34,009 bases of DNA from Pseudomonadota bacterium (GTDB taxonomy: Bacteria; Pseudomonadota; Gammaproteobacteria; Burkholderiales; Rhodocyclaceae), in contig JAGTRY010000032.1 in the NCBI GenBank assembly GCA_018262235.1, positions 1 to 34,009 of the forward strand, given 5' to 3'. The notes beneath the pieces were generated by a model that saw only the letters and a program-made list of their open reading frames with translations, was not told where the DNA came from and searched no databases. A program made the position numbers and the translations under genes. The stretch's first letter is position 1; every line of letters starts with the position of its first letter. This document shows positions 16,381-34,009 of this stretch, in pieces.

Positions 16381-16408
16381 ACAAAAACAAGCCCGGCAAT
16401 TGCCGGGC
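16381..16408 (-). terminator. terminator-like hairpin between epsE-like and kinase genes
   Basis: A perfect 18-base palindrome at 16391-16408 (GCCCGGC arms around AATT) is followed on the minus strand by TTGTTTTTGT (16390-16381). The GC-rich stem plus T-rich tail is the shape of an intrinsic terminator. It lies in the 112-base gap inside an otherwise tight operon, so it may act as an attenuator lowering kinase expression relative to EpsE/EpsL. Confidence 0.6.
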
Positions 16409-16442
16409 CGCGAAACAGCGCGCAGCCTGCGCACCATGCAGA

Positions 16443-17030: not shown

Positions 17031-17035
17031 TACAC

Positions 17036-18337
17036 TCAGAACGACGCCTCCAGCCTCAACATCGTCAAGTTACGGAGGTAATCGTACGTATCCACATTGG
17101 AATTGCGATGCGAGAAAGTGTAATCCAAACCCACACCCAGCCAACGGCGCAAATCGTACATCATGCCGATAGAGTAAACACTTTCACGATCACGACGCAC
17201 ATCGGAGTTGTAACGCGTATTCGTATAACCAGCGGAAAGCTTGCTGTGCACATAGCTGGACCAATCATGACTCCAAGCCAGGGACACGGTCTTCGCAATC
17301 GGAATCCCTGTCGAACCGCTCGGATCGCTGGCTGAACGGCCACTGATCAAATCAAAAGACGTATAGGTAAGGGGCTTCCAGCGCAGCGCGGCTTCCCAGG
17401 TAAACCCGCTGTATTCAGGACGCAACTGGTCGTAAAAGAAATCCTTGCGTTGTTGGCCGGCCTTGATGGTGCCACTCACGGCAGCGGTCGCATCCCAGGT
17501 AGCACCGAGCAGATAGCGACGTTCGGTGTTCTCGAGGAAATTGGTGTCGTGGGCGTAGTCGTAAGTCGTCCAGCGATACTCGACAAACGCGCGCGTCTTG
17601 GGCGCCACACGATAGTAGAAGCGAGCTCCCACATTGGTGGTATCCACATCGGACGCTTCGGTGGAATCATGGTTATTCAGGTAGCGCTTGCTGCTCAGAC
17701 CGGTATCCACTTCCACACGGCCCTTTGCATCATCTGCTCCATAGCGGAACGTGGCGTTCACCGCCAGGTCGCGATGATGATCAGGCTTGGATGCTCCGAT
17801 GCTGCGATCCGTCGAACCAATCGCGTCATAGCGGTCCATATAGGCAGCGCCCCAGGCCACGCTGGCACGTGTATCAAACACGTTAACCCCGTTGAACAAG
17901 AGATCATTGTTCTCAAGCTTGTTGGCGTCAAAACTCGGGTAGCGGGTGTAATCCCCTTTGTACGCCAGGGTGTAACGGTCAGCGCGGTACTTGGCTTCCG
18001 CCACCACGGTAGGCCGCAAGTTGTAGACCGAAGAGCTCACCTCTTGCCCTTTGGTAGCAGTCGTCACGTTGCTGTCATAACCGAAGCTACCCACGACATC
18101 CGCAAACACGTTAATGCCGTCAGCAACTTTCAGCGGATTCTTGCTGCGGGTTTTCGCAACAGGGATTCCACCGGCTTCAAACACATTGGCCGGCAACACC
18201 TCTGCCGAATTGGGCACCGCACTTGAAGAAGGCGGCAGTGGCGCAGGATTGGTGCCATCAACAGGCTCTGCCGCCTTCACCGAGGCAGCCCCGAAAACCA
18301 GCAACGCAATCGCCAGATGAATTTGTGTATGTTTCAT
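17036..18337 (-). CDS. epsL: EpsL-like outer-membrane beta-barrel for exopolysaccharide export
   Basis: The product is 433 residues from the ATG at 18337, preceded by GGGAG at a good distance. A signal peptide (IHLAIALLVFGAASVKA) is followed by a Pro/Ser-rich linker. From about residue 75 there are many alternating amphipathic strands (INVFADVVGSFGYDSNVTT, YTLAYKGDYTRYPSFDANKL). It ends in phenylalanine (MLRLEASF). The strand pattern and the position before epsE match the EpsL family of exopolysaccharide outer-membrane proteins. It probably forms the outer-membrane pore for the polymer, working with the short EpsE. Length and motif fit are good, but no catalytic residues exist to confirm the role. 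Confidence 0.82.
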   Translation of the reverse strand: MKHTQIHLAIALLVFGAASVKAAEPVDGTNPAPLPPSSSAVPNSAEVLPANVFEAGGIPVAKTRSKNPLKVADGINVFADVVGSFGYDSNVTTATKGQEVSSSVYNLRPTVVAEAKYRADRYTLAYKGDYTRYPSFDANKLENNDLLFNGVNVFDTRASVAWGAAYMDRYDAIGSTDRSIGASKPDHHRDLAVNATFRYGADDAKGRVEVDTGLSSKRYLNNHDSTEASDVDTTNVGARFYYRVAPKTRAFVEYRWTTYDYAHDTNFLENTERRYLLGATWDATAAVSGTIKAGQQRKDFFYDQLRPEYSGFTWEAALRWKPLTYTSFDLISGRSASDPSGSTGIPIAKTVSLAWSHDWSSYVHSKLSAGYTNTRYNSDVRRDRESVYSIGMMYDLRRWLGVGLDYTFSHRNSNVDTYDYLRNLTMLRLEASF

Positions 18338-18433
18338 GCGAACTCCCGTATGTATTGCCAATTGCGGCTTAAAACACTATGACCCCAAGCAAACCCAAGC
18401 ATAATTCGAGCCCCAAAGCATGAGGAAACCCCG

Positions 18434-19876
18434 TTACGCCGATGCTCGCCGATTTTTTGCTGTACTGCGAGGAACTAATACCCAAATCAGCCCCAACATC
18501 ACCACAAATGTCAGTCCATTGGCAGGCATCTGCAGGTTGAAATCCACCGCGCTATGCAACAGCAGACAGCAGATCGCCATCGCCCCGCCAAACGCAATGC
18601 CGCGATTCACACGCGACTGTTGCTCGCCCCATAAACGAACCACTCGCCGGATGGTCAGCAGCACCACTCCAGCCAACAGCCCCAAACCCAGCAAGCCCGT
18701 ATCCGCCGCCAGTTCAACATAATCATTGTGGGTATGGTCGTAATACCAAGGCAATTCAAGCGATTTGAAACGCGGAAACGCCGTATAAAAACTTGCCCCG
18801 CCAAAGCCCAGCCAAGGCCGCTCCGCCACCATCGCCAAACTTTGTCGGGCTGGCCTGATGCGTTCCTCCAGCGTTTCTTCACGCGGCGCTCCCGGCACCA
18901 GTTGAACCACCTGTGTTTGGGTCAGCTCAGTGCCCTGCAAGCGCTGCATCACCCGATCCAGACCAATCCACTGCCCGACCACAACCACATCCACCACCAC
19001 CAGACTCAGCACCAGCCAGAAAGCAGACTTGCGCAAACGCTTGTTGCGCGCCATCCCGATACAGCTCACCAGCAGCAAGGAGATGAAAAACGCCGCATTA
19101 CCCATGCGTGAATGCGTCAGCACCAAGGCGATCACCATGATCACCAGCATCAGCCGCAACAGCATCTTGCGAGACATCATGAAGTGCAGCAGCGCGACCA
19201 GTTTTTGGCGACGCGTTACTTCCCGCTCACTCCCACTACTCATGCGGGCCAGCATCAACCCGATACCGATCGACAGACACATCTCCATATAACCCGCAAG
19301 ATGGTCCCAATTTGCAAATGTCCCTGAAGCCCGTGCGCCTTGCTCGAAATGCATGAACAAAAAGGTGTATTCCGCCTGCGAGGCATACAGCAAAATTGCA
19401 ATCAAGGCTTGCAACACGCCAGAAGCAACAAACACCCCGGCAAGAACCTGCACGCCCCGCTCACCTCGCGCCAGCAGCAGCGTGAGCGCAAAACCCGCCA
19501 GATGCACCAGTGTGGCCAACAGATATTGCTGTGTGTTGAAAGCATCGACCGAGACCGGGCCTGGCGTATCGGCCCCAGGCACAAACAACGCTCGCACCCC
19601 CAGCGGCAACACGAGGCTTTGCCCAAACACCAACACCGCAAACAGGCTCAGCAACAGTAAAGGCCAGCGCCCAGGCGCCAGCCGCGCCAATACCGACTCA
19701 CCCCGCCAGATCAGACACAGGATCGTCACCCCCAGCAGCAGCCACAAGCCAGACGCCAGCAAACCCAACGCCCAACTGCGATTACTCGCTAGCGGCAAAG
19801 GGGCCCAGACCAGCAAGAACGCAAAAACACCAAACAGCACACGCTCAAGCCAGGACGATTGCGAAACAGAAGCCAT
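18434..19876 (-). CDS. Wzy_C/O-antigen ligase-family membrane protein
   Basis: The product is 480 residues from the ATG at 19876, with about 12 hydrophobic helices. The diagnostic Wzy_C motif HTHNDYVELAADTGLLGLGL lies near residue 405, after RPWLGFGGASFYTAFPRFKS, the usual periplasmic loop. A second typical loop carries FEQGARASGTFANWDHLAGYM. Family members polymerise repeat units or ligate O-antigen to lipid A core. It is the first gene of the export operon, 96 bases before epsL. A separate Wzy polymerase lies at 26.4-27.6 kb, so this one may have a different job (ligation or a second polymer). The start codon lacks a good ribosome site, so the exact N-terminus is uncertain. Confidence 0.87.
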   Translation of the reverse strand: MASVSQSSWLERVLFGVFAFLLVWAPLPLASNRSWALGLLASGLWLLLGVTILCLIWRGESVLARLAPGRWPLLLLSLFAVLVFGQSLVLPLGVRALFVPGADTPGPVSVDAFNTQQYLLATLVHLAGFALTLLLARGERGVQVLAGVFVASGVLQALIAILLYASQAEYTFLFMHFEQGARASGTFANWDHLAGYMEMCLSIGIGLMLARMSSGSEREVTRRQKLVALLHFMMSRKMLLRLMLVIMVIALVLTHSRMGNAAFFISLLLVSCIGMARNKRLRKSAFWLVLSLVVVDVVVVGQWIGLDRVMQRLQGTELTQTQVVQLVPGAPREETLEERIRPARQSLAMVAERPWLGFGGASFYTAFPRFKSLELPWYYDHTHNDYVELAADTGLLGLGLLAGVVLLTIRRVVRLWGEQQSRVNRGIAFGGAMAICCLLLHSAVDFNLQMPANGLTFVVMLGLIWVLVPRSTAKNRRASA

Positions 19877-19991
19877 AGAACCCAATACGAAACAGGATGA
19901 AGGACCAACAAACCATCCACTGCCAAAGAAGTGCCTGGCGAGTCTCAAGACCCGCTACAACGGCACAGAGCCAGAGCCTTGCGAACCTCAT

Positions 19992-21354: not shown

Positions 21355-21666
21355 TCAGGCCCCGTGTCGCTCAAAGAAAACCTGACCCACACGCTGGATA
21401 TGCGCCTGCAGCGCCGGGTGATCAAGTTCGGCAAAAATAGAAAGATCAATCATCCAGGGCAGCAGCAAATCATCCAGCTCTTCCATCAGATCCAGTTGCG
21501 TGCGATGCGTCAGTGCCTCACCAAACAAAGTGAGATCAATATCCGAGCCGAGTTTGAAATCACCCTTGGCGCGCGAACCATAAAGAATAGCCTTCTCAAC
21601 TTCTGGGTGCCGCGCAAGCGCAGCCTGAATCCGGGCGACAGCTGTCTCTGGCAAACCGAAACGCAT
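21355..21666 (-). CDS. MntA-type nucleotidyltransferase antitoxin (minimal NTase)
   Basis: The product is 103 residues with the minimal nucleotidyltransferase signature at about residues 30-46 (GSRAKGDFKLGSDIDL, the GS-x10-DxD pattern). A third acidic residue in WMIDLSIFAE completes the catalytic triad. Proteins of this size paired with a HEPN protein form HepT/MntA modules, in which the transferase adds AMP to the HEPN toxin and silences it. The ATG shares one base with the TGA of the HEPN gene, so the two are coupled. Confidence 0.9.
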   Translation of the reverse strand: MRFGLPETAVARIQAALARHPEVEKAILYGSRAKGDFKLGSDIDLTLFGEALTHRTQLDLMEELDDLLLPWMIDLSIFAELDHPALQAHIQRVGQVFFERHGA

Positions 21667-22088
21667 CAGCGCCCATCCTCTTCAAGCAAGGCTTCAAGCC
21701 GTGCATGAAGGGCCTGAAATGCGGGGTAAAAGCGATTCAGCACGTTGTCTGCAATGCGCGCAGCCACCACCTGATGATAGGTATGAGAAGTCAGGTTGCG
21801 ATCCTTGATCATATCCATCCAGGCCTCGCCCTCTTCGACCAGACCATTCCTGAAAGCGCTACGCGTTGCATCGCGCGAGCCAATCAAGCCTGAGATTCCT
21901 TTTTCCTCAAGAAAATCTTTAAGCACATTCCAGGCAAGCTCATGCGTGAACTCGAACCCCTGAATCAGGCCCTGCTGCTCCAGCTCAGAAAGAGGCCGCA
22001 GTGCCGCAAGCTCCACCGCCTTCTGCAAGGTGACAAGTGCTTTTGAAAAATTATCAAACCGCTGTTTCCAGCGAACATCCGGATTCAT
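21666..22088 (-). CDS. HEPN-domain toxin (HepT/HI0074 family)
   Basis: From the ATG at 22088 the product is 140 residues; an ATG at 22109 is also in frame but lacks a ribosome site. The HEPN RNase motif R-x4-H-x-Y is present as RNLTSHTY near residue 100. Other family blocks are GFEFTHELAWNVLKDFLEE and IGSRDATRSAFRNGLV. It was long annotated as a nucleotidyltransferase substrate-binding protein (HI0074). In characterised pairs the HEPN protein is an RNase toxin and the adjacent MNT protein is the antitoxin. The gene order toxin-antitoxin here is the common one. Confidence 0.88.
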   Translation of the reverse strand: MNPDVRWKQRFDNFSKALVTLQKAVELAALRPLSELEQQGLIQGFEFTHELAWNVLKDFLEEKGISGLIGSRDATRSAFRNGLVEEGEAWMDMIKDRNLTSHTYHQVVAARIADNVLNRFYPAFQALHARLEALLEEDGR

Positions 22089-22245
22089 ACGTCTCGTCCC
22101 ATCCAGCATGTATTAACCATAGCCAGAAAATAGCACAACAGCGCCCCCATCACTCAAGACGGCTCGTAAAGCGGCTACGGCATTGCAGGTAACAAGAGCA
22201 GCCCCACCGGGGCCTTCAAGATCGTCATTCCGCGACTACAAGATC

Positions 22246-22330
22246 GCGCCTGCGGCGCTACACAAGTTAAAATTTCCGCGCCATCGGCGCACATGCCTTC
22301 CTTGCTACTTGCAACTTGCATCTTGAAACT
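22246..22330. repeat. dispersed GCGCC-nnn-GGCGC palindromes plus CTTGCAACTTGC module
   Basis: Two short palindromes (GCGCC-TGC-GGCGC at 22246-22258 and GCGCC-ATC-GGCGC at 22278-22290) are followed by a CTTGC-rich tract. The stretch 22278-22330 matches 22863-22915 inside the glycosyltransferase gene at about 45 of 53 positions. It lies just past the stop of that gene. Confidence 0.75.
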
Positions 22331-22357
22331 CAAAGCCCGTCCAGCCCGTCTTGCCAC

Positions 22358-23848
22358 TCAGTCCTCAGGCCTGATCATCGCCCAGTAGCGCCCCAACACC
22401 ACCTCGCGATCCAGATACTGTTCGGCATAGGCTCGCCCAGCCGCACCCAGCCGGGCCCGCAATTCGGCATCCCCCGCGAGCCACAACACAGCTTCCGCCA
22501 CGGCCTGCGGGTTTTCAGGCTCCACCACCAAACCACAATTCGCCACCACATCCGCCAACTCGGTACCCGGCTGCGCCGTGGCCACCACCGGGCGGGCACT
22601 GGCCAACATGCCGGTGAGCTTGGAAGGCATCACCAGATCCGCCGCATCCGCACGCTGCGGCAGCAGATGGATATCCGCCATCGTCAGTAACTCGCCCAGG
22701 CGCTCGAAAGGCTGCAAAGGCAACAGCCGCACATTCGCAAGGCCCTCGCACGCCGCATCCAGCACAGCCTTGCCCGCGCCCTGGCCACAGAAAACGAAGA
22801 ACACAGGAGGAGGCAAACCCGAGTAGCAAGTATCAAGTTTCAAGTTACAAGTAGAATCCACCGCGCCAAAGGCGCGCATACCTTCCTTGCAACTTGCGTC
22901 TTGCATCTTGAGACTTGCTTGCTCAGCGCAAAGCGCTGCCGCAGCCGGCAATACCTCCAGCCCCTGCTTCATTCCCATATTCCCCGAATACAGCGCCACC
23001 ACTGCATCCACCGGTATGCCGAGCTCAACCCGATAGCCACTCGCTACCCGCGCATTTGTAGGAGCGACGTCTACGTCGCGAAGCCTTTGCCCTTCACTTA
23101 GGTCTCCGGGAGTGATCGCTGCCAGATCCACCCAGTTCGGGAAGAACACCACTTTCTCCGCCGCAACGCCCTTGTCCTTCGCCAACTCCACCATCCGGCC
23201 AGAAATCGTGCTCACCACATCAAAGCCACGCAGCAGCGTGCGTTCGCACCACAGCGCAAAACGGCGCGCCAGCGGGCTCTTCAGCAAGCCCAGCTGAAAC
23301 GCTGCATCCACCTCGTAATCCTGAATATGAATCACCGCCTTCGCGCCAGAGAGGCGCGCCGTGAGCCAGGCGCCGGGCGCGCACATCAGCGCGGGCGCCG
23401 CCATCCACACCACATCCGGTCGCCAGAAAACCTGGCGCAACATCACCGGCAGGCTCGTCAGCGCAAACGAAGCCAGATGCACCAGCCGCTTCGCCCCACT
23501 CACCTTGCCGGGCACCCACAGCGGGCAACGCCACACTTTGTAAGTCGCAAGGCGCGGCTTTGCCGCTTCAAGGTCGCCGCTACGCGGCTGCAAGGCCGCG
23601 CCTTCGGCGCTACAAGGTTTTGAGCTCCCTTGAAGCGAAGCGCCTTTAAGGCCCAGAGGGCCGTCTTGCACCTTGTACCTGTATGCCGAATAAGGCGCGT
23701 CAACCTTCCACGCCGGGTAATACGGCGGCGCCGTCACCACCCGCACCTCATGCCCCTGCGCGGCGAGCCAATCAGCCATTTCGCCGGTGTATTTACCGAT
23801 GCCGGTCAACTCGGGAGCGAAGTTAATGCCGTAAACCACGATTTTCAT
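22358..23848 (-). CDS. WcaI-like glycosyltransferase (GT4) with three in-frame repeat insertions
   Basis: From the ATG at 23848 the product is 496 residues; the upstream frame to 23974 overlaps the nuclease gene and is not used. The start MKIVVYGINFAPELTGIGKY and EVRVVTAPPYYPAWKV are hallmarks of WcaI-type transferases. The donor-binding half has VALYSGNMGMKQGLEVLPAA and a late MPSKLTGMLASARPVVAT. WcaI enzymes are about 400-410 residues. The excess is explained by three inserts built from repeat DNA: residues about 59-103, about 250-270, and about 342-380. Removing them restores normal family spacing (for example YRY to YKVWRCPLWVPG). Whether the enlarged enzyme is active is unknown. It starts 4 bases after the nuclease stop. 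Confidence 0.85.
   Translation of the reverse strand: MKIVVYGINFAPELTGIGKYTGEMADWLAAQGHEVRVVTAPPYYPAWKVDAPYSAYRYKVQDGPLGLKGASLQGSSKPCSAEGAALQPRSGDLEAAKPRLATYKVWRCPLWVPGKVSGAKRLVHLASFALTSLPVMLRQVFWRPDVVWMAAPALMCAPGAWLTARLSGAKAVIHIQDYEVDAAFQLGLLKSPLARRFALWCERTLLRGFDVVSTISGRMVELAKDKGVAAEKVVFFPNWVDLAAITPGDLSEGQRLRDVDVAPTNARVASGYRVELGIPVDAVVALYSGNMGMKQGLEVLPAAAALCAEQASLKMQDASCKEGMRAFGAVDSTCNLKLDTCYSGLPPPVFFVFCGQGAGKAVLDAACEGLANVRLLPLQPFERLGELLTMADIHLLPQRADAADLVMPSKLTGMLASARPVVATAQPGTELADVVANCGLVVEPENPQAVAEAVLWLAGDAELRARLGAAGRAYAEQYLDREVVLGRYWAMIRPED
22815..22925. repeat. CAAG/CTTGC repeat module inside the glycosyltransferase gene
   Basis: AAGTATCAAGTTTCAAGTTA, a GCGCC-AAA-GGCGC palindrome (22863-22875) and CCTTCCTTGCAACTTGCGTC form one module. 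It encodes SLKMQDASCKEGMRAFGA in the glycosyltransferase, with no counterpart expected in the family. The intergenic copy at 22278-22330 can be read in the same way as SFKMQVASSKEGM. Confidence 0.75.
23058..23083 (+). repeat. GTAG-headed REP element inside the glycosyltransferase gene
   Basis: GTAG (23058-23061) is followed by a stem GCGACGT/ACGTCGC (23064-23070, 23073-23079) and the tail GAAG. It is the same element, apart from one loop base, as the second REP in each tandem unit at the right end of the window. GTAG-headed palindromes are the substrates of REP-associated tyrosine transposases (RAYTs). Its position adds about 20 codons to the glycosyltransferase. Confidence 0.85.
23540..23674. 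repeat. string of four mini-palindromes inside the glycosyltransferase gene
   Basis: Four 13-base palindromes with 5-bp stems lie in a row: 23554-23566, 23576-23588, 23598-23610 and 23650-23662. They are linked by TTCAAGG, TGCAAGG, TACAAGG and TTTAAGG. The tract encodes about 45 extra residues (VQDGPLGLKGASLQGSSKP onward) with an atypical composition. The third palindrome with TACAAG matches the intergenic copy at 22246-22264. Confidence 0.75.
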
Positions 23849-23852: not shown

Positions 23853-24887
23853 CTACTCACTCGAAAGCGCCTGCATATTGCCAGCGTCAGCCTCTGGCGC
23901 ACTTTGCAGATACAGCTCATGCAGCTTCGCCTGCAGCACAGCCTTGTCGGGCAACTGAGTGTGATACTCAGCAATCAAAGCGGGGGACAAGCTACGGCTG
24001 AGTGCGTACTCCACCACCTCATCATCCTTACTGGCGCACAGCAGCACACCAATGGCAGCTTGCTCGTGCGGCTTTTTGACATCACGGTCCAGCGCCTCCA
24101 GATAAAAGCCCAGCTTGCCCAAGTATTCAGGCTCAAAGCGCCCAATTTTTAGCTCAATGGCAACCAAACAATTCAGCCCCCGGTGGAAGAACAACAGGTC
24201 CAACGCAAAATCGCGCCCACCCACCTGCAACGGATACTGACTTCCCACAAAGCAGAAATCCCGCCCCAACTCGATCAGAAAATCCTTCAGATGGCGCAGC
24301 AAGGCAAGATGCAAATCGGCCTCTGCGTGGCCTTGGGGCAAGCCCAAGAACTCCACGAGATAACTATCCTTAAAAATATCCAGCGCCTCCGGATGCATTT
24401 GTGCCACCAGTGGTGTCACTTTTGCAGGACTCAGCACAGAGCGCTCAAACAGCGCTGCCTTGAACTGCCGCTCAAGCTCCCGCTTGCCCCATTGCTCATG
24501 GATAGCCAGCCGCAGGTAAAACTCCCGCTCCTCCGCTCGCTTGCTCTGATTCAGAATGATCAGGTTGTGCGTCCACGGCAGTTGTCGCACCAGCGGTGCG
24601 ACAACTTCATCACCCTGATATGTCTCATAAAACTTGCGCATTCGAAACAAATTACTACGCGTAAAACCCCTGAGCCCCGGCTGCGTTTGAGCCAGGTGCG
24701 CCGCCAACTGCGCCACCACCCCATCGCCCCACTGCGCTTGAGCAATTTTATGACTGATGACTTGCCCCACCTGCCAATACAAATCGATCAACGTCGTATT
24801 GACAGCCTGCACCGCACGGGCGCGTGCAGCTGCGATCAACTGCGTAATCTCGGCAAAGTCAGCCAACTGCATGGCGGGCAAAGTCAT
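23853..24887 (-). CDS. PDDEXK nuclease-family protein (DUF1016/YhcG)
   Basis: The product is 344 residues from the ATG at 24887; the TTG at 24893 is an alternative. The N-terminal DUF1016_N half has the typical LIDLYWQVGQVISHKIAQAQ and GLRGFTRSNLFRMRKFYETY. The C-terminal PDDEXK half carries GRDFALDLLFFHRGLNCLVA then IELKIGRF, which supplies the D and E-x-K catalytic residues. Length is normal. YhcG-type proteins are putative nucleases, sometimes linked to defence or restriction islands. Here the gene lies inside the exopolysaccharide locus, 4 bases before the WcaI-like gene and next to a truncated copy of such a gene. It is probably a passenger rather than part of sugar metabolism. Confidence 0.9.
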   Translation of the reverse strand: MTLPAMQLADFAEITQLIAAARARAVQAVNTTLIDLYWQVGQVISHKIAQAQWGDGVVAQLAAHLAQTQPGLRGFTRSNLFRMRKFYETYQGDEVVAPLVRQLPWTHNLIILNQSKRAEEREFYLRLAIHEQWGKRELERQFKAALFERSVLSPAKVTPLVAQMHPEALDIFKDSYLVEFLGLPQGHAEADLHLALLRHLKDFLIELGRDFCFVGSQYPLQVGGRDFALDLLFFHRGLNCLVAIELKIGRFEPEYLGKLGFYLEALDRDVKKPHEQAAIGVLLCASKDDEVVEYALSRSLSPALIAEYHTQLPDKAVLQAKLHELYLQSAPEADAGNMQALSSE

Positions 24888-24954
24888 ACCCAACAGCCTT
24901 TCATAAACAATTCAATCGCAAGGCGCCTAGCGAACCGCAAACACCCGCGCCCAC

Positions 24955-25122: not shown

Positions 25123-25254
25123 TCAAGAAATCAAGCGAGAAAAGTCGAGCCTGGCCCCTTTTATCCTGGCCAGCCACCGGGCCATTTCACCGGTGTATTT
25201 ACCGATGCCGGTCAGCTCGGGGGAAAAGTTAATACCGTGGATAAGGACTCGCAA
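25123..25254 (-). pseudogene. 5' stump of a second WcaI-like glycosyltransferase gene
   Basis: Reading on the minus strand from a TTG at 25254, the frame gives LRVLIHGINFSPELTGIGKY, then TGEMARWLA. This is clearly the N-terminus of a WcaI-like enzyme and parallels MKIVVYGINFAPELTGIGKY of the intact gene at 23848. After about 29 residues the homology ends and a stop follows at 25123. The bases differ from the intact gene at many positions, so it is not a recent exact duplication. It begins 15 bases after the GT2 stop, which is where an operon partner would start. It is a remnant of an original wcaI-like gene at this position. Confidence 0.85.
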
Positions 25255-25269
25255 CGCGGAACTCTCTTC

Positions 25270-26175
25270 TCAAAAATCAAGAATACGAAGCGGACTGGAT
25301 TTACCTGATAGCACATCCAAAAACGCAATCAAATTACCCTTCAAACGGCCGCGATAATCATGCTTCTCATTCCTAAAACACCGAATCAAATTCGAAGCGA
25401 ATGGACGAAGTACAAAAGATGCTGCGCAAAAGACCGAGAGCCGCCCCTGAAAACAAATATAGATCGGATTCGCCACCTGTGAATAACCAAATCTAAATCC
25501 ACTTGTCCTACCTCTCTGAGCTCCAAGATGGACACCAATACACGCACCAGAACTGGCTAGGCGACCACCATTTTCTACTGCGCGACGGCTCAGATCGAGA
25601 TCCTCCATCCATCCATACAACGGCAAATTTTCATCAAATGAATGAGCCCTAAAGATACTCGCCCTCAAAGCCATGTTGCAGCCGTACAAACTGAAACAGT
25701 CGGAAAGCCGCCCCGCCCCCTTGGAGCCCATCCGCACAAAATTTTCCAAGGCTTGATTAGCCTCCAGTTCCGAGACGCCACCGGAGCGGGCCCCATCAAG
25801 TAAGACATGCCCCGTCAAGCCGATCAAATCTGCATTCTCGAAAAACTGCGCTCGACAACATTCCAACCAATGCCTCTCCGGCCGGAAGTCATCATCAAAA
25901 AACACAAACAATGCGTCATCAACATCCGCTTCGTTTTCCAGAACCCAAGCGACACCAACATTGCGTTGCACCGAAGAGCCTGCGCGATCAGAAACGATCT
26001 GCTTTACAACCTCCGAACGACTCAGTGAGTGCTGCTCCAGTCCGTCCAAATCTTGGGAACAAGTTCCCACGGCCACTATGCGTGAGGCCAGCATTGTTTG
26101 GCGCTCAAGGAAATCCATGAGAATACTGGTCTCCGCGGCACGCCCCTTCGTCGCCACAACAACGAATACTTTCAT
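25270..26175 (-). CDS. glycosyltransferase family 2
   Basis: From the ATG at 26175, preceded by a strong GGAGGTG ribosome site, the product is 301 residues. The GT-A fold is evident: VFVVVATKGRAAETSILMDF at the start, the metal-binding DDD in FVFFDDDFRPERHWLECC near residue 95, and the acceptor-site ED in YGWMEDLDLSRRAVENGG near 205. A hydrophobic C-terminal stretch (LSVFCAASFVLRPFASNLI) may contact the membrane. It adds a sugar to the lipid-linked repeat unit in the cytoplasm; the sugar cannot be read from sequence. It is the last intact gene of the presumed cassette. Confidence 0.9.
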   Translation of the reverse strand: MKVFVVVATKGRAAETSILMDFLERQTMLASRIVAVGTCSQDLDGLEQHSLSRSEVVKQIVSDRAGSSVQRNVGVAWVLENEADVDDALFVFFDDDFRPERHWLECCRAQFFENADLIGLTGHVLLDGARSGGVSELEANQALENFVRMGSKGAGRLSDCFSLYGCNMALRASIFRAHSFDENLPLYGWMEDLDLSRRAVENGGRLASSGACIGVHLGAQRGRTSGFRFGYSQVANPIYICFQGRLSVFCAASFVLRPFASNLIRCFRNEKHDYRGRLKGNLIAFLDVLSGKSSPLRILDF

Positions 26176-26418
26176 ACCACCTCCATCAAATGAAAGTCGT
26201 GGGCTTACTAAACAATATCCCCACCACCGCCAACTCACAGAGCGTATCCGCTCTTAAACGGCCTAACTAAATAGAAGGCCCCATCCATATCACTCCATCG
26301 AATTTGACAACCCCAGCACTTAAGAGGCGCACCTCCTGCACAACAGCGAGGATCTGCCTTCACAAAGCCAACACCCCAATCAACACCAAGATTAGAACAG
26401 TCCCGACTCACCCGGAGA

Positions 26419-27597
26419 CTATTTATTTTTAACAAAAAACTCCCAATGATTAACCGACATGAGCAAAAGAATAAAGAAAGAAGTCGCCGGATTTCCAACC
26501 CCATACAGATAACGAGCAACAAATGCCTCGATAAGCATATACACAAATACCAAAACAACCAATATTGAAACGCAACTAGGCTTTAAGAAAAAACATTTTT
26601 TTAAAGCGAGCAACGGAACAAACACAGCAAAAGCAGCGGCAAAAACCCCAATCTCCCACATCAAATTCAAATAAGAACTATCGGTAGCATACCCATAAAA
26701 AGAATCATCCCACGTGCGAAAACCCGCCCCCAAAAACAAAACTCTAGGAGAATCAAAAATAAGATCGATCATCAATTTCCAATTATCCCCGCGCCCCGTC
26801 ATTCCACTACCAACACCTCTTTCAGCCGTATCAAACTCAAGGAGATCAAAAATGTACTCATGCTTCAAAACTACAACAACAAAAACCAGCAAAACAAAAA
26901 CCGGCCAAAAAGAAATCAGGCGGCTCACCGCCCCAGACAGAGAGCCCTTCCATAACCTCAAGTAAACAACACAAAAGAAAAAAGATACAGCCACGGCTAA
27001 AATAGAGCCGCGTGAACTTGCAGCCAACGGCATAACAAAAAACAACACCGTCAAAAACAAATAAATCACACTATTTTTCCACCCAGAAGAACACACAAAT
27101 CTAGACAAAGCAACAACAGTCGCCAGTCCGAAATTATGACCAACCAAGTTCGGATGAGCGCCCAAAGCCATATACCTAAGCAACCCGTTTTCAGTTCTCG
27201 TTACGGACAAGGCACTTGCAAGCCCAGAAAAGTCCGTGACAACAGAAAGAACAAGCACAGCCAAGCTAGCAATTAAAAACGAGTCGACAGCAGCATTCAA
27301 ACCATAAGCGACCGAACAAAAAAACAGGGAATATGCCGTCATAAAAAAAAGAACGGCATAAAAAGAAGGGCCAACAAGCGAATCAAAGAAAAGCGGAACA
27401 AAAGACAAAACAACAAAAACAAACAACATCACATCAATACCCCGAGGAACAAAAACATTAATCGAGATATTTTTTTTTGCAACCCCAGCTATCGCCGCAA
27501 CAAAAAAACCAGCGACTGGAATCAACCTAAACAAGTCACCGCCACCATCCCCATGAATGGCGCCTTGCAAAAAAAAAGAAATAGTCATTAAAAACAT
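26419..27597 (-). CDS. Wzy-type repeat-unit polymerase
   Basis: The product is 392 residues from the ATG at 27597 (TAGGA upstream); the frame is open to a TTG at 27708 with no ribosome site. Ten or more hydrophobic helices alternate with short loops. A large periplasmic loop near the C-terminus has GVGSGMTGRGDNWKLMIDLI and FLGAGFRTWDDSFYGYATDS then SYLNLMWEIG, the usual Wzy layout. The gene is strikingly AT-rich and A-biased on the plus strand compared with its neighbours, a classic sign of foreign wzy genes. It should join repeat units in the periplasm. Wzx follows upstream. The family is recognised from topology and loop motifs, as Wzy sequences diverge greatly. Confidence 0.83.
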   Translation of the reverse strand: MFLMTISFFLQGAIHGDGGGDLFRLIPVAGFFVAAIAGVAKKNISINVFVPRGIDVMLFVFVVLSFVPLFFDSLVGPSFYAVLFFMTAYSLFFCSVAYGLNAAVDSFLIASLAVLVLSVVTDFSGLASALSVTRTENGLLRYMALGAHPNLVGHNFGLATVVALSRFVCSSGWKNSVIYLFLTVLFFVMPLAASSRGSILAVAVSFFFCVVYLRLWKGSLSGAVSRLISFWPVFVLLVFVVVVLKHEYIFDLLEFDTAERGVGSGMTGRGDNWKLMIDLIFDSPRVLFLGAGFRTWDDSFYGYATDSSYLNLMWEIGVFAAAFAVFVPLLALKKCFFLKPSCVSILVVLVFVYMLIEAFVARYLYGVGNPATSFFILLLMSVNHWEFFVKNK

Positions 27598-27727
27598 AGA
27601 AATCCTATCGGCCAAATTTTGAGGACCACGCCCGCGCCGCCAAAAACAAAACCAGCAACCACATATCCACCTAAAAAACACAACTCTTAACCCAGAGGAC
27701 AAGCTCAAGGACTAAAAAAATTAGAAT

Positions 27728-29011
27728 TTAAAACCTTAAAAAAACAAGAGACTTAAATTGCCGCCACGAAACAATCAGCGCAAAAAATTCCATGATTGCT
27801 ATCAAGGCTACGCAGGACGCCAGATTGGGCATAGCATTAAGCGCGCAAAGAGAAACTGAAACCAGAACAAAATAGGCGACAGAAAATCCGCCGTGCAGAT
27901 TTCTAGCCACCAAAGGAGCACTCAGCATATGCCAACCTGAGTGCAGTACGCTGCACAATGCAAGCCCCCCGACCAAGGCAAAGGAGAAGCTCAAGGTTTC
28001 ATGCGTCCAGGCACGCAGAAACCACTCCCCAAAAATTGCAAAGCAAAATAACATAGGGACTGTCAAACAAAAATAAATCAGAACCACGGGCTTAAACGAC
28101 CTTAAAAACCCTTCTTTATCAGAGGCTGATATGGACTTGGTAAGGTTCGGCATCTGCGCGCGAGTGAACACATAACATAGCTGAAAGGGCAAGCGGCTTA
28201 CTGTTCGGGCAACACCGAACGCAGCGGCTACTTGCGGTCCCAACATGCTTCCAATAACGACGAGTGACCCCTGAAGAAAGAGTGCAACTCCGCCTGGCTG
28301 TAATAGATTCGCGGCAGAAGGGATCAAAATTTCTTTTGCCCGTACAAGGTATTCACGTGACGCGACGGTAACTGTTGCCCAAGGTGCCAGTGCGCGCAAC
28401 GCATAGCCACATATCACCAAGCCCAGAAGCCTTGGCACCACTAAACCTGCTGCGGCTTGAGCAAGCGTCCCCCCTCCCAAAGCTATGCAAGGAGGAATGA
28501 CGACCTCGAGAAAAATGGCGAGAACAGAGATCCAAGACGCGGTCGCGTTGGCGCCGGCCGCACGAATCAAGCAGATGTACATGTTGAACGTGACCAACAA
28601 CGCCAGTTGAATCACGACACAAAAGTAAAGTGCTTGAGAAGAATCACCTGCTCCGAGCCTGTTTCCAAGAAAATCAATTGCATAGGGTGCAGCACAAATG
28701 CCCATTAATCCCACGGCAAGGGACATACCTATTGCGACCCAAAATGCGAGACTTGACCATATTTGCGCCGTTTTTTGATCACGCTTGGCAATCGAGGCAA
28801 TCATTTCATTTGAGGCTGCTTGTGAAACGCCGAAATCGAGAATTGCCGCATACGCAGTGACGCCGACACAAATCATCCAGCTGCCGTATTTTTCGCCGCC
28901 CCATGCGTGCAGATATATCGGAATAAAAATAAGCTGGCCAAGCATGCCAATGATTTGCGCTGCCATATTCGCAATGGCGGCCCACTTCACGCTATCACTG
29001 AGCCAGCGCAC
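27728..29011 (-). CDS. Wzx-type polysaccharide flippase (MATE/MOP superfamily)
   Basis: From the GTG at 29011, which has GGGGGT just before it, the product is 427 residues; a TTG at 29023 is an alternative. There are about 12 helices. The N-terminal AAIANMAAQIIGMLGQLIFI and IYLHAWGGEKYGSWMICVG blocks and a central LQPGGVALFLQGSLVVIGSM block are typical of O-antigen flippases. It moves undecaprenyl-linked repeat units across the inner membrane. The start overlaps the preceding GT4 gene by 17 bases. GC content is closer to the genome than that of wzy. Confidence 0.9.
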   Translation of the reverse strand: MRWLSDSVKWAAIANMAAQIIGMLGQLIFIPIYLHAWGGEKYGSWMICVGVTAYAAILDFGVSQAASNEMIASIAKRDQKTAQIWSSLAFWVAIGMSLAVGLMGICAAPYAIDFLGNRLGAGDSSQALYFCVVIQLALLVTFNMYICLIRAAGANATASWISVLAIFLEVVIPPCIALGGGTLAQAAAGLVVPRLLGLVICGYALRALAPWATVTVASREYLVRAKEILIPSAANLLQPGGVALFLQGSLVVIGSMLGPQVAAAFGVARTVSRLPFQLCYVFTRAQMPNLTKSISASDKEGFLRSFKPVVLIYFCLTVPMLFCFAIFGEWFLRAWTHETLSFSFALVGGLALCSVLHSGWHMLSAPLVARNLHGGFSVAYFVLVSVSLCALNAMPNLASCVALIAIMEFFALIVSWRQFKSLVFLRF

Positions 29012-30104
29012 TATTACCCCCAAGTAGTAGCTGAATCATCCCTGCAAACTGTGCAGAAGAAACGCCTCTTAAATGTTGGTAGTGCAGGCGTGATTGATTG
29101 CACACGGCATCAAAGGTGCCGCCCTCACTGCTCCAATGCGTGAGCGAGCCAATCACTGCGGCCTTATACATATCTGGATCGCTCGGCATCACCAGCCCAA
29201 CATCGGAAAGCAGGTCCGCGATATAGCCCTGAGAGGTGGACAGTATGGGAACGCCTGATTGCAAAGCCTCAAGTACGACGAGGGGTTGTGCTTCAAACCG
29301 ATACTGACTCGGAAATAAGGCGACATCGATATCTGCATAAAACTGCTGCTTTGCATCGCCATAAACCGGGCCAAGATACTGGACGGCATCACCATATTTC
29401 AGCTGGAGTGCACGCAACGCTATCTCGGTTTCAATGTCGGTCACCGGCCCCGCCACGATGATCTTAGATACAAGCTTGGCTTCAAAGCACGCTTCGAAGG
29501 TCTTGAATACAGTCAGCGTGCCCTTTTCTGCACATAAATTTGAGATGTGCCCGAGGATAAACGTGTTATCTGACCTGCGTTTTTCTGTCACTTGAAACTC
29601 TGAAACAAAGACTGCGTTATTCACAACTCTGACTTCATTCAAGTGCGGATAATGCCTCAGCAGATCGGACTTCATGCCCTCGCACAAAGCAAAATGAACC
29701 GCATCATACCCGCACAGTTTTGCTACCCACGCGAACACACGGCTATAAGCCAAAGAATGAAAAGCAGTGTGATGGTGAAGAAAAACACGCCGACCAACTA
29801 GGCGAGCCAGTGTAATCAAAAATATATTGTAGACAACACCATAGCCTGACTCCAAGACAAAGTACGCACATTGACTGCGTTTTACGCCACCTAAAACAAG
29901 TAATCTGGCTGCTTTAAGTACGCTAAACACTCTTCGCAAGTGGTAATTAACCCCTCTTTTAGACTGGCCCGGACTGATATCACAGACCGTCACGCCGGTT
30001 TTTTCACGGCAAGATAATTCATCGCAGACCGCCTTATTAACAACGGATTGGCCATGAACTGGCGGCGGCAAGGCAGCGGCTACAAAAACAGAGTGATTAT
30101 GCAT
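28995..30104 (-). CDS. glycosyltransferase family 4
   Basis: The product is 369 residues. The N-terminal acceptor domain opens FVAAALPPPVHGQSVVNKAV, common in capsule GT4 enzymes. The donor domain has GHISNLCAEKGTLTVFKTFE and IIVAGPVTD, and the retaining GT4 E-x7-E region occurs as FEAQPLVVLEALQSGVPI near residue 265. It should transfer a nucleotide-activated sugar with retention of configuration. The stop overlaps the flippase start, giving translational coupling. The sugar specificity is unknown. Confidence 0.9.
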   Translation of the reverse strand: MHNHSVFVAAALPPPVHGQSVVNKAVCDELSCREKTGVTVCDISPGQSKRGVNYHLRRVFSVLKAARLLVLGGVKRSQCAYFVLESGYGVVYNIFLITLARLVGRRVFLHHHTAFHSLAYSRVFAWVAKLCGYDAVHFALCEGMKSDLLRHYPHLNEVRVVNNAVFVSEFQVTEKRRSDNTFILGHISNLCAEKGTLTVFKTFEACFEAKLVSKIIVAGPVTDIETEIALRALQLKYGDAVQYLGPVYGDAKQQFYADIDVALFPSQYRFEAQPLVVLEALQSGVPILSTSQGYIADLLSDVGLVMPSDPDMYKAAVIGSLTHWSSEGGTFDAVCNQSRLHYQHLRGVSSAQFAGMIQLLLGGNSALAQ

Positions 30105-30133
30105 TTATCTAAATAATAAAAATTATGGTGCAG

Positions 30134-31258
30134 TCAGGCACGAATCAATCTACTTACCGATTCAACAAAGCAAGAAACATCCGCCTTGGCTGACATCTGG
30201 CTGGAAGCCCTGGCCATGGTCTGCCATAGACTTTCATCTTGCGCAATCAGGGACATAAAGTAAGCAGCGCCTTCTGCGTTATCCGGCTCGACAACAAACC
30301 CATTGACGCCCGACCTGATCAATTGATCCCGGGAGCCACATGCTGTGGAAACAATGCATGGCAAGCCCATTGAGATGGCTTCGATAACCACATTGCCAAA
30401 CTGCTCTTCAGTACTTAGCAGCAACAGGGCTACTGTTGTACTCAACAATCGCGCAACATCTTCAGCCTGGATGAATCCCATAAAATCAACCAGACCGCTG
30501 ACTCCGAGAGACACCGCATGCTGCTTCAGCGCACTTTCCAGGGGGCCGTTGCCCGCAATTTTTAATCTGCGCGGGGATGTACTGTTCTTGGCGTATTCTG
30601 CATATGCGCTCAGCGTCAAAAACAGGTTTTTCTTTTCGACCAGCCTCGCAACAACGGTGAAGTGTCGATCACCATAGGCCGCGCCATTTGGCGCCGGCTC
30701 ACACCCCGCAGACCTCCTGATCCGGGAGATCGACATGCTGTCATAACAGGTTGCAATATTTTTCTCTGGTACACCAAGAAAACGCATGTAGTCCTGTGAG
30801 CGAGTGCTTGCGGCCACCCCCCCACGGTAGGGGATATAGAGAACGTACTTGAAAAACTCTTTGAACAAATTGCGTTCATAGTCATCAAACTTTGAGTCGT
30901 TCATGACGTACGTTTTCTGGCCAATCAACCTGAGCACCGCCGCGCTAAAAAATATTGACGGCCTCTCGTAATGGCAAAAAAAATAGGCTGAACCCAAGTT
31001 CCGCCAAAGTATTTTTTGCAGGCGAAACCAGTTTCTGAGCGAAGAGATCAATCCGTTATCACGAGCCGCGCCGCGACAAATGGTCACTTTTTTGAAGCTC
31101 TCTCCTCCCTCGGGCTTCCAGTCGTAAGTGTCACTTTTTGCAAACAACTCAACTCCGGTCACTTGACCAACCCCGGTCAGGCTCTGTGCAACAGCAGAGG
31201 CTCTATCTGCGTGAATGGGGCCAAAGTTATCCCAGACAAATACAATGTTATTTCTCAT
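30134..31258 (-). CDS. glycosyltransferase family 4 (second)
   Basis: The product is 374 residues from the ATG at 31258; a GTG at 31261 directly precedes it. It opens NIVFVWDNFGPIHADRASAV. The donor-binding half has VARLVEKKNLFLTLSAYAEY, LKIAGNGPLESALKQHAVSL and the E-x7-E region EEQFGNVVIEAISMGLPCIV near residue 285. These are standard for retaining GT4 enzymes. The start lies 3 bases after the fucosyltransferase-like stop. The residue it adds cannot be told from sequence. Confidence 0.9.
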   Translation of the reverse strand: MRNNIVFVWDNFGPIHADRASAVAQSLTGVGQVTGVELFAKSDTYDWKPEGGESFKKVTICRGAARDNGLISSLRNWFRLQKILWRNLGSAYFFCHYERPSIFFSAAVLRLIGQKTYVMNDSKFDDYERNLFKEFFKYVLYIPYRGGVAASTRSQDYMRFLGVPEKNIATCYDSMSISRIRRSAGCEPAPNGAAYGDRHFTVVARLVEKKNLFLTLSAYAEYAKNSTSPRRLKIAGNGPLESALKQHAVSLGVSGLVDFMGFIQAEDVARLLSTTVALLLLSTEEQFGNVVIEAISMGLPCIVSTACGSRDQLIRSGVNGFVVEPDNAEGAAYFMSLIAQDESLWQTMARASSQMSAKADVSCFVESVSRLIRA

Positions 31259-31261
31259 CAC

Positions 31262-32302
31262 TTAGGCTTTACGTTTAGCCTTGAGCGTGAGGCTCGGGAA
31301 CAGGGTTTTAATCACGAGCTTCGCCAGATTTTTCACCCTATACTTTGCGGCCACTAGCGGACTGCTCATCAGGAGCTCGCCGGGGATGAGAACTCCGGGA
31401 TCAATGGTCAAATCGCGGAACGAAATCATCGCCGCGGCAAGCGTGGCAAAGTGCGCATTGTTCTGGCCGACTATTTTTCTTGCCCCAGCGAGCAAGTAGA
31501 TATTCTTGATAGCCGTCATCGTCTCCTGAACGGCCTTATCCTGATTCTGCATCAGGAATCGATGGTTGGCGTTGTTGTAGCGTATCTCCTCGTGATCAAA
31601 AACGACCGTGACCCCGGCTGACTCCAAATCAAGCTCTTCAAGCGCCGCTGGAGAATCAGATGCCAGAAACACCTTTTTGATCCCGGTTTCCCGCACCAAA
31701 CGCAATATCGCTTCGCGATACTTGCTTGTTGGCACATAGGGGGTTTCGACTTTTTTATCGCCGCGCCGATAATGGACGCCGATATAGTCGCCCGAAAGCT
31801 CAAGACGGCTCGCAGCAGAAGCGACGTAGTCTGTATATGCGGTTTTTAACTGCATTTTCGACAACAGGATGCCTTCAAATAGCGCCTGACCACCCTCGGT
31901 ATTGGCCAAGCCGGAAGGAAGAAATTCGTAGACGATCTTGCGCTGCTCTTCGTCTTCCCAGAATTTCCAGAAATCAAATCTGACGGCGCCCTGTCGATCG
32001 GCATCGTTAAAATCCAGCACCGATTCCGGAGTTTCACCATTTGACATGGAGCCAGCGCCCTCAAGAGGTTCGTAGCATGTGTCGTACGGATACATTGACT
32101 CTTGCGGGAATGCGGCTCTTCGCCCCGTCATGCAGGCAATCCGCATCGCAAGAACGCGCCGTGAAATTTGGGCACCCAAGCCCGTTGGATCGTGCGAAAA
32201 AGCGGTTGAACGGGGGTTGGCAAGCGCCTGAATCTGGTCAAGCTGCGCCAAAACTCCAGCAGCCCAAATATTCAAAGAATTCTTCTCAGTGCTGGTATTC
32301 AT
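31262..32302 (-). CDS. fucosyltransferase-like protein (NodZ/GT23-like)
   Basis: From the ATG at 32302, with GAGG 6 bases upstream, the product is 346 residues. The key motif is YIGVHYRRGDKKVETPY near residues 173-189; H-x-RRGDK-type motifs bind GDP-fucose in GT23 and related enzymes. A second motif, KKVFLASDSPAALEELD, corresponds to the conserved D-containing block after it. A third (NIYLLAGARKIVGQNNAHFA) resembles the S/N-x-F region of the same fold. The adjacent GDP-L-fucose synthase gene supports use of GDP-fucose. GT11 or an O-fucosyltransferase-like enzyme are alternatives. Confidence 0.65.
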   Translation of the reverse strand: MNTSTEKNSLNIWAAGVLAQLDQIQALANPRSTAFSHDPTGLGAQISRRVLAMRIACMTGRRAAFPQESMYPYDTCYEPLEGAGSMSNGETPESVLDFNDADRQGAVRFDFWKFWEDEEQRKIVYEFLPSGLANTEGGQALFEGILLSKMQLKTAYTDYVASAASRLELSGDYIGVHYRRGDKKVETPYVPTSKYREAILRLVRETGIKKVFLASDSPAALEELDLESAGVTVVFDHEEIRYNNANHRFLMQNQDKAVQETMTAIKNIYLLAGARKIVGQNNAHFATLAAAMISFRDLTIDPGVLIPGELLMSSPLVAAKYRVKNLAKLVIKTLFPSLTLKAKRKA

Positions 32303-32309
32303 TGTTGCC

Positions 32310-32395
32310 TCAGTTTCCGCAATAAGCTTCAAACGCTTGCTGGATACCTGCTTCCAGTTCCACCACGGCCTTCCACCCCAGCGCATTCATAAATT
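32310..32395 (-). pseudogene. 3' stump of a second GDP-L-fucose synthase gene
   Basis: The minus-strand frame ending at the TGA at 32310 encodes FMNALGWKAVVELEAGIQQA, then FEAYCGN. This parallels the C-terminus of the intact synthase upstream, [20 protein letters not shown] then FKAYLG. Upstream of this piece the frame loses homology and enters a CAAG-type repeat. It ends 7 bases before the fucosyltransferase-like ATG. The stump is the tail of an fcl gene that once preceded this fucosyltransferase gene. Confidence 0.85.
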
Positions 32396-32411
32396 CAGTT
32401 CCAAGAACGCT

Positions 32412-32450
32412 CACTTTGTGAGCTTCAAGTTTCAAGTTGCAAGGAAAGGC
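32412..32450. repeat. CAAG-type repeat between intact fcl and fcl stump
   Basis: CACTTTGTG forms a small dyad and is followed by AGCTTCAAGTTTCAAGTTGC and AAGGAAAGGCG. Its reverse complement (CCTTTCCTTGCAACTTG) resembles the CCTTCCTTGCAACTTG module at 22880-22896. It sits exactly at the junction between the intact fcl gene and the stump. Confidence 0.6.
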
Positions 32451-32452
32451 GT

Positions 32453-33532
32453 TCATCCCAGATATGCCTTGAATGCGCTGTCGATACCGGCTTCGAGCTC
32501 CACCGCCGCCTTCCACCCCAGCGCATTCAAACGTGAGCTATCCATCAGCTTGCGCGGCGTGCCATCCGGCTTGGTGGCATCAAATTCAATCGCCCCCTTG
32601 TAGCCCACGACCTTGGCGACCAGTTCCGCCACCTCGCGAATCGTCACGTCCGTGCCATAGCCAACATTGATGTGGCTGCACATTGGGCTGGTGTTGGCGG
32701 CGTAGGTGGCGTTGTCCAGATTCATCACGTAGATGCTGGCTGCGGCCATGTCGTCGACGTGGAGAAATTCGCGATAGGGCGTGCCGGTGCCCCAGAGGGT
32801 CACCGCGTTGCGTGGGCTGATGACGGAGCTCGGGGTAATGGTGGCGGCTTCGGGGTCCAGACCGATCATCGCCTTGATGTCTTTGGGGATTTCGCCGTAT
32901 TTCTGTTCGTTGGCGATGATGCCTTGGATATCACCTTCCATCGCCAGCTTGGCGAGGTGGAATTTGCGAATCATGGCAGGCAGTACGTGGCTATTGGCGA
33001 GGTGGTAGTTGTCACCCGGACCATAGAGGTTGGTGGGCATCACGCTGCGGTAATCCACGCCATATTGGCGGTTGTAGCTCTCGCAGAGTTTGATGCCGGC
33101 GATTTTGGCGATGGCATAGGGCTCGTTGGTGGGTTCCAGAATACCAGTGAGCAATGCATCTTCGCGCATGGGCTGAGGCACTGCGCGCGGATAGATGCAA
33201 CTGGAGCCGAGGAACAGCAGTTTATTGATGCCAGCGCGCCAGGCTTCGTGAATGACGCTGGTTTCAATCATCAGGTTGGAATAGATGAATTCGGCGGGAT
33301 AGGTATTGTTGGCGTGAATGCCGCCGACTTTGGCTGCAGCGAGGTAGACCTGGGTGGGTTTTTCGGCCTCGAAGAACGCACGGACAGCGGCCGGATCGGT
33401 GAGGTCAAGCTCTTTATGCGTTTTGACAACCAAACACTCCGGGCTTAAGCCCTGAGCGAGAAGCTGACGAACGATGGCGGAGCCGACCATGCCACGGTGG
33501 CCGGCGACGTAGATCTTTTCTTGAGTGCTCAT
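32453..33532 (-). CDS. fcl: GDP-L-fucose synthase (GDP-4-keto-6-deoxymannose epimerase/reductase)
   Basis: The product is 359 residues, an extended SDR. The NADP site GHRGMVGS is at residues 11-18, the catalytic serine block [10 protein letters not shown] near 108-116, and Y-x3-K as YAIAK at 139-143. It converts GDP-4-keto-6-deoxy-D-mannose to GDP-L-fucose in the cytoplasm. E. coli Fcl has about 321 residues; the extra length is a segment near residues 195-235 ([20 protein letters not shown]), seen in a subgroup of the family. The partner gmd is not in the window and may lie to the right. The neighbouring fucosyltransferase-like gene is a likely consumer of the product. Confidence 0.93.
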
Positions 33533-33572
33533 ATCCGAATCTCTTTTCCAATCTATGGGTCCTGGCCTGCAC

Positions 33573-34009
33573 CAGGGTGACGGCTATTTTGCTGCTCCGG
33601 ACTCGGGCATTAGCCGTGAGTCCTTTAAAAGCTTCGCGGCTGACAGCCGCTCCTACAAATTCGAATGCTTCGCGACGTGGACGTCGCTCCTACAGTGCTG
33701 GCCTCATCTGGTCTGTGCCAGGGTGACGGCTATTTTGCTGCTCCGGACTCGGGCATTAGCAGTGAGTCCTTTAAAAGCTTCGCGGCTGATAGCCGCTCCT
33801 ACAAATTCGAATGCTTCGCGACGTGGACGTCGCTCCTACAGTGCTGGCCTCATTCTGGCCTGTACCAGGGTGACGGCTATTTTGCTGCTGCTCCAGACTC
33901 GGGCATTAGTCGTGAGTCCTTTAAAAGCTTCGCGGCTGATAGCCGCTCCTACAAATTCAAATACTTCGCGACGTGGACGCCGCTCCCACAGTACTGGCCT
34001 CATTCTGGT
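33573..34009 (-). repeat. three tandem ~147-bp units, each with two GTAG-headed REP elements
   Basis: Units start at 33573, 33719 and 33866 (CAGGGTGACGGCTATTTTGC). Each contains GGACTC/GAGTCC arms and two REPs in the same orientation on the minus strand. REP-a is at 33631-33656, 33777-33802 and 33927-33952. REP-b is at 33667-33693, 33813-33839 and 33963-33989. On the minus strand both begin GTAGGAGC, then a palindrome, then GCGAAG. The third REP-b has lost its head (GTGG). The array continues to the window edge, so the copy number is a minimum. No gene is seen in 33533-34009. Confidence 0.92.

Follow-up and report, generated by a model that had tools for sequence, protein, structure and literature searches.

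We analysed a 34,009-nucleotide stretch of DNA (in the following the window), which is one contig (C150; GenBank JAGTRY010000032.1, assembly GCA_018262235.1) of the 199 that make up the 3.96-Mb genome of a Rhodocyclaceae bacterium. The window carries a cassette of glycan-specifying genes that lies between two border genes, fcl and wcaI. At each end of the cassette a truncated second allele of the respective border gene is found, which we call a stump. The genes described here are read from the minus strand, in the order fcl, fcl stump, fut, GT4, GT4, wzx, wzy, GT2, wcaI stump, yhcG and wcaI.

Two gene stumps at the ends of the cassette

The left border gene is the resident fcl (32453-33532), which encodes a GDP-L-fucose synthase of the long-insert type with 359 aa. 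The protein scored above the cut-off of the Pfam model Epimerase and reached 488 bits against the NCBIfam model GDPFucSynFcl, whose cut-off is 500. A spacer of 62 bp (32391-32452) separates it from the fcl 3' stump (32310-32390), i.e. 26 codons and the stop codon of a second fcl as seen by self-BLAST and translation. Positions 32390-32313 translate as MNALGWKAVVELEAGIQQAFEAYCGN and are followed by the stump's own stop codon at 32312-32310; the encoded peptide is 76% identical over 25 aa to the C-terminus of the resident Fcl. The right border gene is the resident wcaI (22358-23848), which scored above the cut-off of the NCBIfam WcaI family PRK10307. Its counterpart at the cassette, found in the same way, is a 5' stump of 29 homologous codons (25168-25254) that starts with TTG at 25254 and encodes a peptide 72% identical over 29 aa to the resident WcaI.

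In a BLAST comparison of the window with itself, from which a tandem repeat at 33562-34009 was set aside, the wcaI pair ranked first (25168-25238 versus 23762-23832, 84.5% over 71 nt, E 2e-15), two heptad repeats, one inside wcaI and one behind it, second (E 5e-11) and the fcl pair third (32343-32389 versus 32483-32529, 89% over 47 nt, E 1.7e-10). Both stumps, which had been proposed in a preliminary description of this DNA, thus stand far above chance. The operon-like spacing described there was also confirmed, with 7 bases between the fcl stump and fut and 15 bases between GT2 and the wcaI stump. The wcaI stump had been placed at 25123-25254. The frame does stay open over this whole span, up to a stop codon at 25125-25123, but homology to wcaI is limited to 25168-25254, and the non-homologous remainder (25123-25167) holds a repeat arm. 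The intact genes had furthermore been placed just outside the stumps. The resident fcl lies 62 bp from its stump, and a yhcG-like gene (23853-24893) parts the wcaI stump from the intact wcaI, ending four bases before the latter. By Pfam its 346-aa product contains DUF1016_N and a YhcG PDDEXK nuclease domain, and it matches the PADLOC candidate family PDC-S02. The gene may have belonged to an earlier cassette as its last member, or it may have come in later as a passenger.

The cassette itself starts with fut (31262-32302), a putative fucosyltransferase gene. Its description as fucosyltransferase-like draws on weak PDB matches (POFUT2 as the best with E 0.006, FUT8 with E 0.3), and its product matched no Pfam or NCBIfam model. 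The identities of the two GT4 glycosyltransferases (30134-31261, Pfam PF00534 and PF13692; 28995-30104, PF13692 and PF00534) and of the wzy-like polymerase (26419-27708, Pfam Wzy_C with 33.7 bits at a cut-off of 31.7) were borne out by Pfam. The wzx-like flippase (27728-29023) matched the NCBIfam model WZX_like below its curated cut-off (E 2.4e-10, 40 bits against 300) and no Pfam model. The last gene encodes a GT2-like glycosyltransferase (25270-26175) with an ATG at 26175 that is preceded by GGAGG; its NCBIfam matches EPS_EpsD and MftF (E about 3e-8) were both below cut-off, and no Pfam model was matched. The end of the fcl stump holds GAGG, which resembles a ribosome-binding site, five bases before the ATG of fut. 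Since the stump end carries this context for fut, its retention would be favoured.

Repeats were found at both ends of the block. The 62-bp spacer, which would form the left joint, contains an array of CTTG heptads and a GCTCAC-AAA-GTGAGC hairpin; the whole segment folded no better than shuffled sequences (z -0.86). Under the search stringency applied, the genome outside this contig has related heptads at a single site only, on contig C148, and no heptad triplets were found in the loci L033-L125, congener stretches included. The heptads were also considered as direct-repeat recombination arms, which was rejected because the copies near 22308 and 32426 are inverted relative to each other. On the right, the arm of a palindromic repeat, GGGGCCAGGCTCGACTTTTC (25139-25158), adjoins the end of the wcaI stump. 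Five family loci were examined for this sequence, and in two of them it is one arm of a full palindrome; this genome has three further copies with one mismatch each. One of these copies is on contig C15, 24 bp away from a Y1_Tnp (IS200-like transposase) gene and on its 5' side. REP-associated tyrosine transposases (RAYT) have associated palindromes, which this copy resembles in its position next to a Y1 transposase gene. Unlike in such elements, a single arm is present at the wcaI stump, together with neither the complete palindrome nor a transposase gene, and the 71-nt segment folded no better than shuffles (z 0.81). We do not count it as a RAYT/REP element.

Further repeats and insertions were seen in and around the border genes. 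Three tandem REP-like repeats of 146 bp (33562-34009) lie upstream of fcl and reach the contig end. The resident wcaI contains two in-frame insertions that are absent from three relatives. One (22820-22925, minus strand) is a palindrome of CTTG heptads that adds about 36 residues and folds better than shuffles (z -4.68), and the other (residues ~62-99, at about 23552-23665, minus strand) adds about 35 residues and contains no heptads. A related heptad sequence after the wcaI stop codon (22250-22340, minus strand) folds no better than shuffles (z 0.26).

The fcl/wcaI border in related genomes

After wcaI the minus strand continues with an MNT-type nucleotidyltransferase and an NTase_sub_bind (HEPN-like) gene (21355-22109), a pair that we take to be of toxin-antitoxin type, and with two short open reading frames (ORFs). 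These are followed by a conserved assembly block (13251-19948), which according to Pfam encodes a second Wzy_C protein (18434-19948), a beta-barrel porin, Wza, Wzc and CpsB. The domains of Wza (Poly_export/SLBB) and Wzc (Wzz/GNVR/AAA_31) scored above their cut-offs. Beside cpsB lies an ORF (12611-13288, minus strand) with no Pfam match, which is 44-56% identical to the ORF at the same position in the genomes G002, G003 and G004. An initiating phosphoglycosyltransferase, a Bac_transf protein, is encoded on a separate contig (C24). The same contig holds the start of gmd (residues 2-119 of the G003 protein, 86% identity), which runs off the contig end, and transferase and gmd start would fit the gene order of G003 across an assembly gap. 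From its gene content the region is best explained as a Wzx/Wzy-type exopolysaccharide locus, with the wzx member being a weak profile match.

A collection of named genomes was scanned with the resident fcl, and the best 80 of at least 589 relatives were kept. A full-length fcl match (73-77% identity) was present in four of the seven other species of the genus. G003 carries intact fcl and wcaI around a different cassette (acyltransferase, wzx-like, GT4, wzy-like, GT2, GT4, GT2, acyltransferase, aldo-keto reductase and FAD protein); the same assembly block comes next, and there are no stumps. In G002 and G004 other cassettes follow fcl, again with the assembly block behind them and with no close wcaI. 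The expectation that related genomes hold other cassettes at the same borders was thus borne out, at both borders in G003 and on the fcl side in G002 and G004. The gene order of the assembly block is common to the window and these three genomes; the fetched stretches of G006 gave no match to it. An initiating sugar transferase lies upstream of fcl in G002, G003 and G004 (59-65% identity to each other; Pfam was run on the G002 protein). In G003, gmd is found just upstream of fcl and in G004 just downstream, the latter as judged from the start sequence alone. The left border of G002 contains a Y1_Tnp (IS200-like) gene (L118:1947-2423) and many short repeats shortly after fcl. When the cassette genes of the window were compared with the fetched stretches of G002, G003, G004, G006 and G024 (E<=1e-5), wzx alone gave matches, with 23-26% identity to ORFs of G004 and G003.

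For wcaI we searched about 395 family genomes, one per species and drawn from a larger group. A wcaI-like gene was found at E<=1e-60 in just 11 of them, the genome of the window and G003 included, which makes two alleles in a single locus unlikely by chance. Ten wcaI loci were fetched. In those of G259 and G346, which represent two other genera, fcl and wcaI directly abut; the remaining eight showed no fcl within roughly 1.5 kb upstream, where other open frames end. The G346 wcaI (L179), which directly follows fcl, appears frameshifted near its start and has two in-frame stops. In colanic-acid-type loci fcl and wcaI are near neighbours. The abutting pairs resemble this situation, whereas our genome and G003 hold a whole wzx/wzy cassette in between. 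Taken together, the order fcl-cassette-wcaI in G003, the other cassettes in G002 and G004 and the abutting pairs elsewhere mark the fcl/wcaI border, on the level of gene order, as a slot for exchangeable glycan-specifying genes. Judged in the same way, the border genes are ordinary neighbours in some genera, and cassettes sit between them in this genus.

The cassette also stands out in base composition. The cassette genes of the window have a GC content of 0.41-0.52, with the lowest value of the block found for the wzy-like gene (0.413), and a GC content at third codon positions (GC3) of 0.40-0.59. The corresponding GC/GC3 values are 0.58/0.73 for fcl, 0.62/0.71 for wcaI and 0.55-0.57/0.60-0.68 for the assembly block. 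Nine genes of the G003 cassette are likewise low in GC (0.34-0.51).

Divergence of the stumps from the resident genes

If the stumps were recent copies of the resident gene ends, they should be close to these. The wcaI stump shares 67 of 87 nt with the resident gene, 64 of 87 with G003 and up to 65 of 87 with other genera (ten loci). It is thus nearly as near to another genus as to the resident gene, which favours a foreign allele over a duplication. The fcl stump shares 51 of 69 nt with the resident fcl and at best 45 of 69 with any of 109 distinct other fcl-like tails. Equal closeness across related genomes, which the preliminary description had named as an outcome that speaks against an import, is therefore not seen for fcl, and for wcaI the resident gene is only slightly ahead. 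At codon positions 1, 2 and 3 the stumps differ from the resident genes by 4, 3 and 11 changes for fcl (72 nt) and by 8, 2 and 9 changes for wcaI (84 nt). In both stumps together 13 of 25 changed codons are synonymous, whereas neutral decay would lead one to expect 5.7-6.5 (joint P 0.0044 and 0.0084 with two transition biases, from 5000 simulations of a simple neutral model each). For the fcl stump alone P was 0.017 and 0.030. From this excess much of the divergence seems to have accrued while both alleles were functional, more surely so for fcl.

These data bear directly on the possibility that the resident gene ends were duplicated in situ and then decayed. The greater closeness of the fcl stump to its resident gene than to any of the other tails is what a duplication would give. 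The excess of synonymous change argues against it, as does the wcaI stump, which is about as far from the resident gene as other genera are. A fresh partial copy moreover looks different: In L042 (Haematospirillum sp.) a 5' fcl fragment is contained in a direct repeat of 1606 bp (copies 1008-2613 and 5345-6950) that is 99.9% identical. We therefore regard an in-situ duplication as very unlikely.

The L042 copy was found upon searching 115 fcl locus records, some of which cover the same gene and many of which have about 1.5 kb of flank, for second copies of the head or tail of their own fcl (at least 50% identity over at least 18 residues). Nine second matches were obtained: the window stump, two in L042 (an exact copy of the fcl 5' end and the start of another SDR gene), two in L052, one each in L084 and L101, and two in L108. 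Those in L052, L084, L101 and L108 are low-scoring or, by sequence, other SDR genes. A second fcl tail was present in no other of these records, the only other tail match, in L108, being by its sequence the C-terminus of another SDR protein. This leaves it extremely improbable that the stumps are conserved small functional features, such as a leader peptide or an RNA element, that have nothing to do with cassette exchange, even if the fcl stump does provide fut with its ribosome-binding context. A more general scan for stumps (94 sources, those below 6000 bases skipped; 1178 ORFs, 150 matches) was dominated by low-complexity and wrong-frame matches. It gave one off-frame match in the window, failed to retrieve the stumps of the window itself cleanly and was not used. 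Overall the stumps look, from their sequence, like remnants of border-gene alleles that evolved separately from the resident ones and arrived together with the cassette.

Origin of the cassette and comparison with known systems

We consider it probable that the cassette stems from a related lineage that has not been sampled, in which it lay between alleles of fcl and wcaI, and that it was joined non-homologously between the resident border genes. The cassette from fut to GT2 would earlier have resided between the donor's own fcl and wcaI. A single import event would have placed it, without homologous crossing-over in the border genes, with the resident fcl on its left and the side of the resident wcaI on its right. 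With it would have come the final 26 codons of the donor's fcl, which hold the ribosome-binding context of fut. The start of the donor wcaI would also have been carried along, as a dispensable piece, and the donor gene may have been cut at or near the arm of the transposase-linked palindromic repeat. The two different repeats would mark the two joints. One could go further and consider the slot a dedicated exchange site, at which the heptad-hairpin on the left and the Y1-transposase-linked palindrome on the right serve as cut-and-join points; we think this doubtful. Whole wzx/wzy cassettes would then move together with border-gene ends and without homologous arms, which appears just as doubtful.

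The direction of the transfer is weakly suggested by synteny, as the assembly block comes after the outer wcaI both in our genome and in G003. The anatomy would be identical if the cassette, together with an fcl and a wcaI of its own, were the older part and an incoming fcl and yhcG-wcaI segment had overwritten the borders, leaving the inner ends behind. The four bases between yhcG and wcaI look as if both had arrived together, and the published meningococcal model truncates the recipient gene (PMC5349592). Against this order of events speak the synteny of the outer wcaI with that of G003 and the composition step, which falls at the cassette, though weakly because cassettes are generally low in GC. 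We hold the reverse order to be unlikely, if worth keeping in mind. The fcl tail and the wcaI head could also have been acquired at different times in two unrelated border events. The different repeats at the two joints would agree with this, as would the fact that the fcl stump, measured against other genomes, is nearer to its resident gene than the wcaI stump is. Both stumps, however, are ordered and spaced as they would be in an fcl-cassette-wcaI operon, and they have diverged similarly from their residents, so that two such events seem improbable.

Several points weigh against the import of a donor block as favoured here. The contig breaks off upstream of the outer fcl, such that the wcaI side alone informs about which genes are native, and the two joints could differ in age. 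The wcaI stump taken singly gives no significant synonymous excess (P 0.057 and 0.098), and the test uses a simple neutral model. With 69 and 87 comparable nt the stumps are short, and a tree of 12 wcaI heads, in which the G346 head is shifted by its frameshift, was not resolved (supports 0.02-0.93, mostly low) and did not pair stump and resident. As the G003 cassette is equally low in GC, low GC marks cassettes in general here and gives neither a donor nor a direction. A strain with an uninterrupted fcl-fut-GT4-GT4-wzx-wzy-GT2-wcaI block, as the preliminary description had envisaged, was not found in the 395 family genomes, a sample in which the absence of a donor is not decisive. Among the DNA matches listed there, none was to the cassette genes; 12 other genomes matched the search sequence, each in the part with the wcaI stump and the repeat only. 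Neither the family set nor 399 genomes of the order contained a convincing relative of the Fut protein (two family matches with E about 6e-4 cover just 51 and 78 residues). Of the import of a donor block proposed earlier, the slot in G003 and the allele-like divergence of the stumps hold up, while the donor genome was not found and the direction is weakly decided.

A similar arrangement has been described for the cps island of Neisseria meningitidis, for which an intact galE1 and a truncated galE2 at the flanks are reported and illegitimate recombination on import is proposed (PMC5349592). Common to both cases is a polysaccharide island with a sugar gene at its flanks that is present in intact form and as a second, truncated allele. 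In the meningococcal case one gene is concerned, the repeated regions are inverted and the remnant is proposed to be the recipient's (PMC5349592). Here, two different genes are concerned, one per border and in the same orientation, and the stumps lie inside the intact copies. The features of the galE1/galE2 kind recur nonetheless: two truncated second alleles, a remnant that behaves as an independent allele, and relatives free of stumps (G003, G259 and G346). Galactose-initiated O-antigen clusters of Salmonella likewise contain gene remnants and, at the D2 junction, an H-repeat remnant, so that recombination of repeat-unit genes leaves remnants of genes and mobile elements at junctions; the remnants in the portion of that work considered here are of internal wzy genes and not of both border genes (PMC3715488). 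By analogy, our arrangement clearly reads as the scar left by a gene exchange of a known type and not as a new mechanism. What it adds to the known cases is the involvement of two different border genes with one stump per joint.

Exchange of specificity genes at polysaccharide loci is established, and homologous recombination in the flanks tends to erase the joints. Here both border genes left identifiable ends, which show directly how far the transferred block reaches. The two joints provide exact sequences for recognising the donor in future strains or metagenomes. The cassette genes set which sugar coat the bacterium makes, and their import would be expected to have changed this glycan.

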